Origin: Candidatus Aerophobota bacterium
Lineage (GTDB): Bacteria; Aerophobota; Aerophobia; Aerophobales; JAGGXI01
NCBI GenBank assembly: GCA_021163155.1
Contig: JAGGXI010000031.1
Span: forward strand, 1-35,673
DNA: 35,673 bases
Direction: 5' to 3'
Shown: piece after piece, positions 6,030 to 11,795 of the stretch
How positions within the stretch are numbered: position 1 is the stretch's first letter
How the letters are laid out: every line of letters starts with the position of its first letter
The notes under the pieces: model-generated
What the model saw: only the letters and a program-made list of their open reading frames with translations
The model's database searches: none
Told to the model about the DNA's origin: nothing
Program-made: the position numbers and the translations under genes

Positions 6030-6479
6030 ATGAAAATTGTACTAATGCAAGATATAGAACATTTAGGGAAAAAAGAGGAGATAGTAGAAGTAAGTGATGG
6101 TTATGGACGTAATTTCCTTCTTCCAAAAAAAATAGCCCTGCAAGCTACCCCTGCCAATATTAAACAATTGGAGGAGAAAAAAAGAACAGTCCAAGAAAAA
6201 AAAGAAAAAGGGAAATTGAAAGCTCTAAAAATAGCTAAAAAATTAAAAGGAGCTAAATTAACAATAGAAAGAGAGTTAGGAAAAGAAGGAAAATTGTTTG
6301 GTGCTGTTACTTCACATGACATTGCTCAAGAGATAGAAAAAAAATTTCATTTAGATATAGATCATAGAAAGATTAATTTAGAAGAACCTATCAAAGTTAT
6401 AGGGATTGAAAAGGTTTCTCTTAAACTTCATCCTGAAGTAAGGATTGAGGTAGAGGTAGAGATAAAAAAGAGAGATTAA
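6030..6479 (+). CDS. rplI: 50S ribosomal protein bL9
   Basis: This 149-residue protein is full length for bL9. The N-terminal RNA-binding domain begins MKIVLMQDIEHLGKKEEIVE and contains VSDGYGRNFLLPKKIALQAT, the L9 signature. A long charged connecting helix (about 50-80) leads to the C-terminal domain (about 85-149, with LFGAVTSHDIA). AGGAG at 6019-6023 serves as ribosome site. The gene ends the ribosomal cluster. Its stop codon overlaps the stop codon of the convergent murC by two bases (TTAA at 6476-6479), so no room is left for an intergenic terminator. Confidence 0.95.
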   Translation: MKIVLMQDIEHLGKKEEIVEVSDGYGRNFLLPKKIALQATPANIKQLEEKKRTVQEKKEKGKLKALKIAKKLKGAKLTIERELGKEGKLFGAVTSHDIAQEIEKKFHLDIDHRKINLEEPIKVIGIEKVSLKLHPEVRIEVEVEIKKRD

Positions 6480-7855
6480 TTCATTTCTTTTAAAAAGACC
6501 TCGCCAACTTTCTCTATATCACCGGCTCCCATAATTAAGAGAAGGTCTCCTTCTTTGGCCTTTTTTTTTAAAAAGTTAATTAGTTGTTTAAGGGAGGGGA
6601 AATAGTAAGTTTCTTTTTTTCTCTGTTTCTTAATCTCTTCAAATAATAATTTTCCGCTTATACCGGGAAGGGGGCGCTCTCCTGCAGAATAAATAGAGCT
6701 TAAAAGTAGGACATCCGTCTTCTTAAAAGCTGCGGCAAAGCGGTGTAGAAATATTTTTGTCCGCGTGTAACGATGAGGTTGAAAAACTGTTATAATTCGT
6801 CTATTTAATCTTTTAGCAGCAATTAATGTCTTTTCAATCTCTGTGGGATGGTGAGCAAAGTCATTTACTACTAATATATGAGAGGAAATTTCTCCTATTT
6901 TTTCGAACCTTCTTTTTACTCCTTTAAATGAAGAGAGCGACTTTTTTATCTTATCCCAGCCTATTTTCAGTCTTATCCCTACCCCTATGGCTCCAAGAGA
7001 ATTATATATATTATGTTCACCGGGCAAGGAAAGTTTAACCTCCTCAACTACATCTCCTTTATATTTAACTCGATAAAGAGAAGTAAATTCTCTTAGCCTT
7101 ATTTTATCAGCACATAGATCTGCTTCGGAGTTAATACCATAAGTAATCATCTTCTGTAAGGGATGAAGATGTATTCTTCTTAAAATTTCTCTTAATCGAG
7201 CGTCATCTCTATTTATAATTAGTGTTCCTCCAGGTTTTAACTTCTCTATAAATTGAACAAATGAGTTAAATAGGTTCTTTTTTGATTTGTAAAAGTCTAA
7301 ATGATCATCTTCTAAACTGGTAAGTATACAAATTTTAGGATGGAGAAATAAAAAAGAACCGTCCGACTCATCGCTTTCGACTATTGCATACTCATCATCT
7401 CCCAATTTACTATTGCTCCCTATCGCATTATCCTCTCCTCCAACAAATATAGTAGGGTCTTTACCTCCCTCTCGAAGAATAGAATATATAAGGGAAGAGG
7501 TGGTTGTTTTTCCGTGAGTTCCAGCAATAACAATATTTTCTCTTTCATTAGTAAGATAAGCTAAAAGTTTTCCTCTGGAGATGAGGGGAATATTTTCTCT
7601 TTTTGCCCTCTTAAGTTCAGGGTTATCAGATAAAATAGCGGAAGAAACTACTACTGCATCAGTATTGTTTATATGGGAAGAACTATGTCCCTGGTAAATA
7701 GTTGCCCCTCTTGTCCTTAGTTCCTCAGTAAACTTATTTCCTTTTATATCTGACCCGCTGACTTTATATCCCATTTTCAATAATACCTTTGCCAATCCGC
7801 TCATCCCTGCTCCCCCAATGCCTATAAAATGAAGAGAGGTAACTTTGTTTAACAT
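6476..7855 (-). CDS. murC: UDP-N-acetylmuramate--L-alanine ligase
   Basis: This 459-residue enzyme adds L-alanine to UDP-MurNAc in the cytoplasm, the first amino-acid step of peptidoglycan precursor synthesis. The N-terminal nucleotide-sugar domain has GIGGAGMSGLA (12-22). The central ATPase domain has GTHGKTTT (112-119). The C-terminal ligase domain contains NDFAHHPTEIEKT, the MurC hallmark. Length is normal. Upstream AGAGGA is a modest ribosome site. It follows murG in the same direction as in dcw clusters, but 359 bp of REP-type repeats have come between them. Confidence 0.96.
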   Translation of the reverse strand: MLNKVTSLHFIGIGGAGMSGLAKVLLKMGYKVSGSDIKGNKFTEELRTRGATIYQGHSSSHINNTDAVVVSSAILSDNPELKRAKRENIPLISRGKLLAYLTNERENIVIAGTHGKTTTSSLIYSILREGGKDPTIFVGGEDNAIGSNSKLGDDEYAIVESDESDGSFLFLHPKICILTSLEDDHLDFYKSKKNLFNSFVQFIEKLKPGGTLIINRDDARLREILRRIHLHPLQKMITYGINSEADLCADKIRLREFTSLYRVKYKGDVVEEVKLSLPGEHNIYNSLGAIGVGIRLKIGWDKIKKSLSSFKGVKRRFEKIGEISSHILVVNDFAHHPTEIEKTLIAAKRLNRRIITVFQPHRYTRTKIFLHRFAAAFKKTDVLLLSSIYSAGERPLPGISGKLLFEEIKKQRKKETYYFPSLKQLINFLKKKAKEGDLLLIMGAGDIEKVGEVFLKEMN

Positions 7856-7877
7856 TTTCTTAATCCTCTTCTTAAAG

Positions 7878-7899
7878 GGCGATTAGCCTCACCCCCACT
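7878..7899 (-). repeat. Decayed copy of the GGGCGA-type GTAG palindrome
   Basis: The 22 bases match the reverse complement of the element at 18678-18699 at 19 of 22 positions. The head has changed from CTAC to CCAC and the arms no longer pair fully. It lies just upstream of murC. Confidence 0.55.
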
Positions 7900-7934
7900 C
7901 AAATCCAAATAGCAGCTATTTACTAACTTGATTG

Positions 7935-7988
7935 GTAGCCGCAGGCTTCAGCCTGCGTTTACTTGCGCAACTTAAAAGTTGCGGCTAC
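7935..7988 (-). repeat. BIME-like inverted REP pair (types B and A)
   Basis: GTAG at 7935-7938 leads arms CGCAGGCT (7940-7947) and AGCCTGCG (7950-7957) with a TC centre. After a short spacer come arms CGCAACTT (7966-7973) and AAGTTGCG (7976-7983) and CTAC at 7985-7988. Here the type B palindrome is perfect. Confidence 0.82.
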
Positions 7989-8043
7989 CAGTATCTCTAA
8001 TCCTGCTTTTCTTGGTTTTTTCTCTGTTTTTCTTTACTTTCCC

Positions 8044-8075
8044 TTTAATCCTTTAATCCTCTAATCCTCTAATCC
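8044..8075 (-). repeat. GGATTARA octamer tandem array (4 units)
   Basis: On the plus strand it reads TTTAATCC twice, then TCTAATCC twice. On the murG/murC sense strand it is the same purine-rich GGATTARA array as at 5492-5523. Confidence 0.9.
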
Positions 8076-8169
8076 TGTTTTTTAATCCTGCTTTTCTTGG
8101 TTTTTTCTCTGTTTTTCTTTACTTTCCCTCTATCCTTCTTTTCTTGTTTTCCCTTTAATCCTTCTTTTG

Positions 8170-8218
8170 CGCAGGCTTCAGCCTGCGTTTACTTGCGCAA
8201 CTTAAAAGTTGCGACTAC
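8170..8218 (-). repeat. Partial third copy of the BIME module, overlapping the murG stop
   Basis: Type B arms at 8170-8177 and 8180-8187 are intact, but the GTAG head on that side is gone. Type A arms follow at 8196-8203 and 8206-8213, and CTAC at 8215-8218. The GTAG of the sense strand contains the TAG stop codon of murG. Confidence 0.8.
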
Positions 8219-9372
8219 CAGTATCTCTTTCCCTTTAATCCTTCTTTTTCTGCTTTTTCTGTTTTTTTTGCCAAACTATAGATTATCTTTACTATTTCTT
8301 CTGTAGCCTCAGGCTTTCCCAATGCTTTACCTTTCTTTCCCATTTCCTTAAGCAGATTTCTATCATTAATTAATTTTAAAATGTTCTCTTTTAGCCCCTC
8401 TCCTCTAAGCTCTTTCTCTGTAATAATAAGGGCTGCTCCATTTTTTTGCAAAACTTCCGCATTTTTAAGTTGATGCTCCTCTGTAGCATAGGGGTAAGGA
8501 ATTAATATGGCAGGAAGCCCTAAAGCAGTAATTTCAGAAATAGTTGTTGCCCCACTTCTACAAATAATTAAATCAGATGCATTATAAGCGTATTCCATTT
8601 GATTCAGGTAAGAAAGAATTAGAGATTTAATTTTTACAGTTTTTAAAGATTCTTCTACCCATTTGAAATCATTTTTTCCTGTGATAAAGATTACCTGTAT
8701 CTTCTTATCCGAACCCTCCTTTTTTTCTAATAGTTTAATTGCTTCAATTGCGGATAAATTAAGCGAGTGAGCTCCCTGACTGCCTCCAGTAAAAAGCAGA
8801 GTAAACTTATCCTTATCTAAACCTAATTTTATTAGAGCATCTTCTCTTTTTAATTTAAAAATTTGTGAACGAAGAGGATTGCCTGTAAAATATAATTTAT
8901 TTCTTACTTTAAGAGGAAAAAAATCTTTCGTTTGAGGGAAACTGATGGCTATCTTTGATGCCCATCGACAAAGAAATCTATTACTGAGGGAAGGATGTAA
9001 ATTTTGTTCACAGATTAAAGTGGGAATGCCCAAAAAAAAGGAAAGCATTACTATTGGATAAGAGTGAAAACTCCCCGCCCCTACCACTACTTGAGGTTTA
9101 AACCAGAGAATTATTACTAACGACTGCGCAAAAGATATCCATAAATTTAACCAGAAGGTTGCCCATTTTATAGACAAAGTTCTTGGATAACTCTGGATGC
9201 TGATTTTCTTAAATTTGAATCCTTCAGAAGAGACAATTTTAAACTCAAGCGTTCTTTTTCCCCCTACCCATAAAATACAATTGGTATAGTCGATTTTCTT
9301 AAGATATGAAGCTATAGCTAAAGCAGGATAAAGGTGTCCTCCTGTTCCTCCCGCCGCTATTAATACTTTCAT
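8215..9372 (-). CDS. murG: UDP-N-acetylglucosamine--lipid-I GlcNAc transferase
   Basis: This 385-residue GT28 glycosyltransferase converts lipid I to lipid II on the inner face of the membrane. Motifs are GGTGGHLYPALA (8-19), CEQNLHPSLSNRFL for the acceptor region, GGSQGAHSLN (G-loop 2), and RSGATTISEITALGLPAILI with downstream EEHQLKNA for UDP-GlcNAc binding. The ATG overlaps the secF stop in ATGA, so translation is coupled. The last 13 or so codons (KAEKEGLKGKRYW, about 8215-8254) and the stop are made of the dispersed repeat module, so the tail is not ancestral MurG sequence. The catalytic part is intact. Confidence 0.96.
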   Translation of the reverse strand: MKVLIAAGGTGGHLYPALAIASYLKKIDYTNCILWVGGKRTLEFKIVSSEGFKFKKISIQSYPRTLSIKWATFWLNLWISFAQSLVIILWFKPQVVVGAGSFHSYPIVMLSFFLGIPTLICEQNLHPSLSNRFLCRWASKIAISFPQTKDFFPLKVRNKLYFTGNPLRSQIFKLKREDALIKLGLDKDKFTLLFTGGSQGAHSLNLSAIEAIKLLEKKEGSDKKIQVIFITGKNDFKWVEESLKTVKIKSLILSYLNQMEYAYNASDLIICRSGATTISEITALGLPAILIPYPYATEEHQLKNAEVLQKNGAALIITEKELRGEGLKENILKLINDRNLLKEMGKKGKALGKPEATEEIVKIIYSLAKKTEKAEKEGLKGKRYW

Positions 9373-10493
9373 CTTCTCTTAGTCTTATCCTCTCCCCAGG
9401 TATATACCACAGGAGTGGCTACAAAACTGGATGAGTAGGTGCCTACTATTACACCTACTAAAAGAGCAAAGGCAAACCCATGAATTGCTGCTCCTCCCCA
9501 TAAGAATAAAGCTAAAACTACCACAAAAGTAGTTAAAGAAGTGATTACGGTTCTTGACAAGGACTGATTGATGCTTAAATTAAAAACCTTTTTATAGGGA
9601 AATCTTTTTTTGCGATAAGTTTTAAAATTTTCCCTAATTCTATCATAGATAACAATAGTATCATTTAAAGAATATCCAATAATGGTAAGTAAGGCAGCTA
9701 TTACAGTAAGATTAAATTCAAAATTACATAAGGAGAGAGCTCCTACACTAATAAATACATCATGAGTTAAAGCAACCACTGCTCCTACAGCAAACCTTAA
9801 TTTAAAACGCCAGGAGATATAAATAAGCATTCCTACTAAACTAAATGCTATAGCCAATAAAGCGCCTTTTCGAAGTTCCTCGCTTATTTTAGGACCTATT
9901 AAATTAATACTTCGGACTATAAATGCATTTTTTCTCTCTTTAAATTCTTCTTTTACTGCCTTCTCTATCTTAGCAGACATTTTTTGAGATGTAATTTGCT
10001 GAAGAAGAGGGGCAAGAGAATCCTCTTTTATTTGGTTAATATTTATTTTATCCTTTTGAGAAGGATTAATAGTAATAAATTTAACTAAATTTTCATACCC
10101 AATGCTATTTATTCCCCGAATATCCTTTAATTCTTCAAGAGTGGTAAATTTGCCATTTTTCTCTCGATAAGCGACTATTTCAGAAGCAATATTCTTAGAA
10201 ATTTCCTCTACTCCAAATCTTACAAGAACCAGGTTCTCATCCTTTTTACCATAAGATTGAATAACAGCGTTTCCTAAACCTATTTTAGATAATCCTGCTC
10301 TTACACGACTGATAGGAGTAAATTCATTAAACTTGAAATGGACTTCAATCCCCCCTGTAAAATCTAAACCAAGTTTCGGCCCTCCCTTTAATGCAAGAGA
10401 AATAATACCTATGCATATAGCAATCCCTGATATAACAAAAGCTACTTTTCTTAATCCAATGAAATCTATATTTGTTTTTCCAAAAAATTGCAT
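9369..10493 (-). CDS. secF: Protein translocase subunit SecF with an inserted helix-hairpin-helix segment
   Basis: This 374-residue SecF works with SecD to drive late steps of Sec export using the proton or sodium gradient. TM1 is at about 15-36, followed by LGLDFTGGIEVHFKF (41-55). The C-terminal five-helix block includes LTHDVFISVG and IIGYSLNDTIVIYDRIRENF (about 272-291), both SecF hallmarks. It is about 70 residues longer than usual. The extra part, about 98-142, reads NIASEIVAYREKNGKFTT then LEELKDIRGI, which looks like a ComEA-type helix-hairpin-helix. It sits in the extracytoplasmic domain between TM1 and TM2. SecD lies 9 nt upstream and murG overlaps by 4 nt. Confidence 0.94.
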   Translation of the reverse strand: MQFFGKTNIDFIGLRKVAFVISGIAICIGIISLALKGGPKLGLDFTGGIEVHFKFNEFTPISRVRAGLSKIGLGNAVIQSYGKKDENLVLVRFGVEEISKNIASEIVAYREKNGKFTTLEELKDIRGINSIGYENLVKFITINPSQKDKININQIKEDSLAPLLQQITSQKMSAKIEKAVKEEFKERKNAFIVRSINLIGPKISEELRKGALLAIAFSLVGMLIYISWRFKLRFAVGAVVALTHDVFISVGALSLCNFEFNLTVIAALLTIIGYSLNDTIVIYDRIRENFKTYRKKRFPYKKVFNLSINQSLSRTVITSLTTFVVVLALFLWGGAAIHGFAFALLVGVIVGTYSSSFVATPVVYTWGEDKTKRR

Positions 10494-10502
10494 CTACTCC
10501 TC

Positions 10503-11795
10503 CTAAATACTTAATCGTTTTATCGGTCTTCCAGCTAAAAGAAGATTAAAGATAGTCTTAGTCACTACTATGGCTGTAAAGAGACTGGCTAAAATTCCAA
10601 TGGATAAAGTAGTAGCAAATCCCTTTATAGGACCACTACCAAACTGAAGGAGAATAAGAGCTGTAATAAGAGTGGTTATATTTGCATCTAAGATAGTTCT
10701 AAGAGCTCCACTGTAACCAGCATCTAAAGCAGAGCGAGGAGCCCTCTCCTTCCTTAACTCCTCTCTAATTCTTTCAAAGATGATTACGTTAGCATCAACA
10801 CTCATACCAATGGTGAGAATAATTCCTGCAATACCAGGAAGAGTTAGTGTGGCCTTAAGACCAGCTAAAGCTCCTAATAAAAAAAGTAGATTTAACAAAA
10901 GAGCAACATCGGCAATTAATCCTGCCTTTTTATAGTAAAATACCATGAAAAAAATAACACAGATAAAGCCAATAATTCCTGCCCAGAATCCTTTTCTTAT
11001 AGAATCCTGTCCTAAAGAAGGGCCTACTGTTGTATTCTGGATAATATTAAAAGGGACAGGTAAAGCACCACTTTTAAGAACAATACGTAATTCATTAGCT
11101 TTTTCCATAGTAAAATTTCCTTCAATGATTGCTTTACCATCGGGAATTCGAGTTTTTACCACCGGAGCAGTCTTAACCACATTATCCAATACTATAGCAA
11201 GCCTTTCTCCTACATGTCTTCCTGTAATTTGAGCAAACTTATCTGCTCCTTCTTTATCAAAGCTTAAAGTTACATAGGGCTGTCCCCATTGTCCTATCTC
11301 TACTCGTGTATCCTTTATAGTTTTACCCGTTAGAAGAGTCTCTTTCTTTAATAGATAAGGCTCGCCTTTTGAGTCATATAATACCTCATCTTCTGAAGAA
11401 ATTTTTCCTTGAAGAGCTTCGTTTAAATTTCCCTTTTCATCCAATAACTTAAACTCAAGTAAAGCGGTTTTCCCAACAATGTCTATTGCCCTCTGAGGGT
11501 CTTCTATTCCTGGAAGGTCTACTATTATTCTTTTATCTCCTTGACGAACAATTGTAGGTTCTTTCACTCCAAATTGGTCTATTCTATTTCTGATAATCTC
11601 TAAACCTGTGTTCATTGCATCTTTGAGGTCTTCTTCTGGAGGAAGTTTACTTTCATCTGCCTCTAATACCAGATGCATACCCCCCTTTAAGTCTAATCCC
11701 AGGTTTATCTTCTCCCCGGGAGGAAATATAGCCCAGACAGCCAACGCTATTATTCCCACTATTGACAACATTACCCATTTATCATATCGACGCAT
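10503..11795 (-). CDS. secD: Protein translocase subunit SecD
   Basis: This 430-residue SecD has TM1 at about 8-24, then LGLDLKGGMHLVLE (32-45), and a large extracytoplasmic domain with EIIRNRIDQFGVKEPTIVRQ. The C-terminal membrane block contains GMSVDANVIIFERIREELRK, with the conserved aspartate and the cytoplasmic arginine-rich turn. The length fits short SecD proteins. GGGGAGGA lies about 9 nt before the ATG. secD, secF and murG form a tight unit, and no yajC is seen upstream. Instead proS diverges at 12078. Confidence 0.96.
   Translation of the reverse strand: MRRYDKWVMLSIVGIIALAVWAIFPPGEKINLGLDLKGGMHLVLEADESKLPPEEDLKDAMNTGLEIIRNRIDQFGVKEPTIVRQGDKRIIVDLPGIEDPQRAIDIVGKTALLEFKLLDEKGNLNEALQGKISSEDEVLYDSKGEPYLLKKETLLTGKTIKDTRVEIGQWGQPYVTLSFDKEGADKFAQITGRHVGERLAIVLDNVVKTAPVVKTRIPDGKAIIEGNFTMEKANELRIVLKSGALPVPFNIIQNTTVGPSLGQDSIRKGFWAGIIGFICVIFFMVFYYKKAGLIADVALLLNLLFLLGALAGLKATLTLPGIAGIILTIGMSVDANVIIFERIREELRKERAPRSALDAGYSGALRTILDANITTLITALILLQFGSGPIKGFATTLSIGILASLFTAIVVTKTIFNLLLAGRPIKRLSI

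Follow-up and report, generated by a model that had tools for sequence, protein, structure and literature searches.

A ComEA-like helix-hairpin-helix insert in the P4 domain of SecF from Candidatus Aerophobota

The secDF locus

SecDF is a near-universal motor whose periplasmic domains are believed to pull on proteins as these emerge, or to hold them. In this study, we analyzed a window of 35,673 nucleotides from a Candidatus Aerophobota bacterium, which represents contig C47 of a 1.83 Mb genome (G000) and encodes both subunits of this motor side by side on the reverse strand:

9369..10493, reverse strand: SecF, 374 aa, with an insert in the P4 domain (open reading frame; PF02355 231.5 bits; TIGR00966 307 bits, cutoff 160)
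10503..11795, reverse strand: SecD, 430 aa, partner subunit, directly upstream of SecF (TIGR01129 479 bits, cutoff 244; PF21760 and PF22599)

By its TIGR00966 score the identity of SecF is secure. It shares with the SecF of known SecDF motors (TIGR00966, PF02355) the same core, the adjacent SecD and the beta-alpha-beta-beta-alpha-beta pattern of P4, but differs from them by a helix-hairpin-helix insert of 66 residues within P4 helix 2. In SecD, no unusual domain was found with Pfam and TIGR profiles. Downstream of secF on the same strand lie a murG-like gene (8215-9372), its end overlapping that of secF, and next a Mur ligase gene (6476-7855), which places genes of cell-wall synthesis beside those of the export pump (6476-10493).

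The genome bin contains a second SecD-SecF pair on contig C76 (L123, 1-4069). Its SecF has 320 aa and no insert, shows 51% identity over residues 179-365, and is placed outside the Aerophobota SecF clade. GC content (35%) and tetranucleotides do not distinguish this pair from the window, and it represents either contamination or a transferred second pump.

Homology and extent of the insert

Two features define the insert at the sequence level:

10071..10211, reverse strand: match to HHH_3 (ComEA-type helix-hairpin-helix), SecF residues 95-141, profile positions 19-65 of 65 (Pfam, E 1.1e-11)
9978..10175, reverse strand: 66 residues (about 107-172) that the insert-free SecF proteins of the phylum do not have (alignment; boundaries ± a few residues)

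A preliminary description of this DNA had noticed a ComEA-like helix-hairpin-helix at SecF residues of about 98-142 (10068-10202), had located it in the extracytoplasmic domain between TM1 and TM2, and had estimated SecF to be about 70 residues longer than usual. All three points agree with our data. The HHH_3 match reaches 45.1 bits at a Pfam cutoff of 27, alignment and structural model place the insert in P4, and the 66 extra residues, counted against the insert-free SecF of another genome of the phylum (G006), lie inside P4 helix 2 between ...ASEI and ...KIEKAVKEEF. Furthermore, the insert profile matched the ComEA structures 8dfk and 8dss with E-values of 1e-4 and 0.005. With the C-terminal domain of ComEA (HHH_3, PF12836) the insert shares a helix YREKNGxF, a helix LEEL, a hairpin, a further helix, a closing strand, and an INxN motif. 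Judged by these sequence comparisons, it is a descendant of a ComEA-type helix-hairpin-helix.

The HHH_3 match corresponds to a partial domain, with the N-terminal half of the profile not covered. The segment after the match (ININQ..., residues 150-183) resembles this missing half, and because it follows rather than precedes the match, the two ComEA halves appear to stand in permuted order. In most SecF, a profile of the first ComEA half, derived from ComEA-like proteins of the phylum, likewise falls after the second half, each of these matches being weak (E ≥ 0.03); together with the structural model they suggest the permutation. In contrast to the ComEA domain, the insert thus has its halves probably permuted, has lost one hairpin and the GxG motif, carries the reversed charge, and resides within a membrane pump.

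The description had also likened the segment to K proteins of type II secretion systems (T2SS). The minor pseudopilin GspK (PF03934/PF21687, NF037980) matches the same helix-hairpin-helix segment weakly, and membership was rejected with the full protein at scores below the cutoffs (NF037980, 35.2 of 130 bits; PF21687, 16.8 of 26.2 bits).

Predicted structure of P4

For structure prediction, AlphaFold was run on SecF residues 38-205, comprising P4 alone, with an alignment of seven sequences. The model had a mean pLDDT of 86, with about 90 over P4 and insert, whereas prediction of full-length SecF was poor (mean pLDDT 59.5), including the membrane part. From the P4 model, the following elements were assigned:

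9885..10379, reverse strand: P4 extracytoplasmic domain, residues 39-203 including the insert (AlphaFold, 38-205)
10155..10208, reverse strand: helix B, residues 96-113, ...IASEIVAYREKNG, in which the first part of native helix 2 continues into the ComEA-like YREKNGKF helix (model; conservation)
10122..10139, reverse strand: helix C, residues 119-124, LEELKD, opening the helix-hairpin-helix that is retained (model)
10083..10121, reverse strand: hairpin and helix D, residues 125-137 (helix D 128-137), IRGINSIGYENLV, with the conserved GYENL (model; conservation)
10041..10076, reverse strand: short strand pair, residues 140-141 with 150-151, joining the two halves (DSSP on the model)
9945..10025, reverse strand: long helix, residues 157-183, similar to the ComEA N-terminal half, without hairpin, running into native P4 helix 2 (IEKAVKEEF)

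According to the predicted secondary structure, the b1-a1-b2-b3-a2-b4 pattern of the SecF fold is kept, and all elements of the insert, from helix B to the long helix, are located between b3 and b4. Foldseek returned no significant match for the P4 model and no helix-hairpin-helix structure; the best hit was the P4 domain of SecDF, 2rrn, at a probability of 0.89 and a weak E-value of 0.2. Within the insert, a single helix-hairpin-helix is predicted instead of the two in order 1-2 of a ComEA-type (HhH)2 domain. The helix-hairpin-helix noticed in the preliminary description is present once in the model, and the other hairpin is predicted as a continuous helix. In this model, helix B, helix C, the hairpin and helix D would be the counterpart of the second half of the ComEA domain, and the ININ strand with the start of the long helix probably that of the first half. 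Weak profile matches and the model suggest that the place of the helix linking the ComEA halves is taken by native helix 2 and that the first hairpin is gone.

Hairpin residues and charge

Helix-hairpin-helix domains typically bind DNA through backbone contacts. For ComEA, the DNA contacts consist of bonds to backbone phosphates and of lysines (PMC9747964). We compared the respective positions in the 13 insert-bearing SecF of the phylum with those in 11 ComEA-like proteins of the same phylum. The GxG hairpin expected for HHH_3 was found in none of the 13 SecF and in all 11 ComEA-like proteins (GIG or GMG). At the GIG site of ComEA, the window SecF has GIN and most relatives have GIE; EIE, ALE and similar variants also occur. 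The basic residues that follow the hairpin are lost in the SecF inserts as well. Over a segment of 48 residues, the mean net charge was −2.1 in SecF vs. +2.1 in the comparison set (the 11 ComEA-like proteins and one Tex protein, L109), and it was negative in 11 of the 13 SecF inserts. Given the missing GxG and a net charge of about −2 instead of +2, binding of DNA by the SecF insert is unlikely as far as sequence and model can tell, and the suggestion of the preliminary description that the insert could bind DNA was dropped.

Distribution and conservation

Among 17 sampled Aerophobota genomes, 12 encode a full-length SecF with the insert, and a SecF fragment in G002 covers the insert, giving 13 genomes from five families (f1, f3, f4, f5, and f6). 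SecF of G001 and G006 lacks the insert, only the C-terminal half of SecF is present in G011, and the search of G016 gave no SecF core. The two genomes without the insert imply that SecF of this phylum can do without it. The named relatives carrying the insert are mostly metagenome-assembled genomes (MAGs) of Candidatus Aerophobetes. Since 12 genomes besides that of the window have the insert, at a mean identity of 58%, it is neither a chance match nor a frame or assembly artefact. This mean pairwise identity of the helix-hairpin-helix part compares with 62% in the N-terminal portion of P4 and 75% in the membrane helices further on, and the motifs GYENL and INxN are conserved. As conservation of the insert is close to that of its host domain, the insert appears to be under constraint, and the sequences point to purifying selection similar to that on the host domain.

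In a survey of 386 genomes, the Aerophobota insert profile scored 127-152 bits in Aerophobota and at most 40 bits elsewhere. A combined insert profile detected 17 SecF at 72-132 bits in the same genomes, followed by a next match at 43 bits, and the insert was found nowhere in this profile survey beyond Aerophobota and two other small phyla. Both were recognized from matches spanning the profile and from long SecF frames. The first, with two genomes sampled (G034 and G181), has SecF with a P4 insert. In the second, with 14 genomes sampled (including G136), all 11 intact SecF (467-543 aa) carry the insert, and two further secF genes are interrupted by a stretch of Ns or divided between contigs. 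At spanning matches in G195, G064, G271, G046, G318, G152, G331, and on contig C64 of G136, no SecF frame was found. The assumption that no standard SecF has this domain can thus be kept in the sense that the insert is unusual, being absent from almost all phyla surveyed, but not in the sense that it is unique. Our literature search, limited to open-licence papers, returned none that joins SecF with a helix-hairpin-helix or Aerophobetes with a protein translocase, and we rate the helix-hairpin-helix-bearing SecF as a new variant of SecF.

In both other phyla the insert is similar, has the same place, and lacks GxG; SecF is longer there (467-543 aa) and has a second repeat-like segment after helix 2. 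In SecF of the G136 phylum (L078-L089), this is an INxN-helix segment, as if the module were repeated, and in L082 and L083 an acidic linker is also present. In the alignment, the order of strand, helix, hairpin segment, INxN segment and helix is common to all three groups, and 16 of the 19 insert segments in the three phyla matched HHH_3 with E ≤ 0.01. Independent insert profiles of Aerophobota and the G136 type could be aligned along 90 columns (probability 98.8%, E 4.5e-17). The link to the very divergent G034-type insert, for which no Pfam HHH_3 match was obtained, is weaker and relies on colinearity and the mixed profile, since the comparison of profile A5 with the G034-type profile A6 gave a probability of 24.9% (E 0.0008).

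Origin of the insert

When outgroups were included, the rpoB tree placed G001 and G006, which lack the insert, at the base of Aerophobota and united the insert-bearing genomes in a clade (82/91); G034 stood weakly next to Aerophobota (85/57), and the G136 phylum was located elsewhere. On this tree, at least three changes are needed to explain the distribution of the insert. Without outgroups, the two insert-free genomes grouped together (91/90), and their nesting depends on the root; they are probably basal in Aerophobota. Neither the SecF core tree nor the SecD+SecF tree settled the order inside the phylum. A clade of all Aerophobota and both other groups was not rejected with SecD+SecF (p-AU 0.154); when G001 and G006 were left out of the clade of insert-bearing SecF, its rejection was trivial. 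The insert may stem from a single old origin followed by losses, from a transfer of either the operon or the domain, or from repeated gain.

Proposed function

P4 of SecF and the SecD P1-base change position as protons flow, and the beta-sheets of the two can combine to form a single barrel (PMC8669966). Since the insert is placed in helix 2, it would lie on the helical side of P4 and leave the sheet free for the SecD P1-base; the fold suggests that it faces away from the sheet. We consider it probable, at roughly 0.6, that the window encodes an ordinary SecDF subunit whose P4 carries a repurposed helix-hairpin-helix without phosphate binding, which would provide the helical face with a platform for structural support and protein contacts. 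The ComEA-type module, built into the second helix of periplasmic P4, would touch a putative partner (another envelope protein, YidC, or the emerging substrate) or would stiffen the moving P4/P1 assembly. Either role, protein contact or stiffener, fits all data. If the insert binds protein, this binding may help export. SecF of Escherichia coli contacts YidC (PMC8669966), and the periplasmic domains of SecDF contact BAM (PMC7695460). Protein binding by this fold has a precedent in a ComEA-type helix-hairpin-helix protein that reportedly binds fibronectin (PMC2601033). We infer that a module for protein interaction at the Sec channel exit, the other option named in the preliminary description, is a better reading than DNA binding.

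The insert might also be neutral, an accidentally added domain that the outside of P4 tolerates and that is conserved for fold stability only. The insert-free SecF in two Aerophobota and in nearly all other bacteria surveyed, and the varying insert length between phyla, speak for this; retention in 13 genomes of five families at an identity like that of the host domain, with GYENL conserved, and in every intact SecF of the G136 phylum speaks against it, and we regard it as unlikely, though with some weight. It is clearly unlikely that these proteins form a distinct class of Sec motor, spread over three or more phyla, whose permuted helix-hairpin-helix arm on SecF would bring a dedicated envelope partner or nucleic acid to the channel exit, adding an export step absent from model organisms.

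Helix-hairpin-helix and related folds often pair, which would favor self-association, the faces of two SecF forming SecDF dimers or clusters of the holo-translocon. ComEA itself oligomerises, but via another domain (PMC9747964), and we find self-association very doubtful. Least credible, at a very small chance, is an arm that binds periplasmic DNA like ComEA and thereby links Sec to DNA uptake or holds DNA at the export site: the ComEA-type homology is clear and ComEA-like proteins are also encoded in most genomes of the phylum, but the hairpin of the N-terminal half is not formed in the model, GxG and the basic residues are lost, and the net charge is mostly negative.

With a repurposed helix-hairpin-helix as platform, P4 would have been rebuilt at one and the same position in three phyla around a fold that originally binds DNA, marking where this domain tolerates or uses a contact surface. 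Aerophobota provide natural pairs with and without the insert inside one phylum. Annotation of a helix-hairpin-helix in a membrane protein need not mean DNA binding.

Regarding HHH_3 in general, at least 11 to at least 15 matches per genome were counted in G034, G181, G044, G083, G109, G148, and G285. In G034 and G181, the two genomes with the divergent SecF insert, some of these matches are located in frames of 1000-1650 aa.
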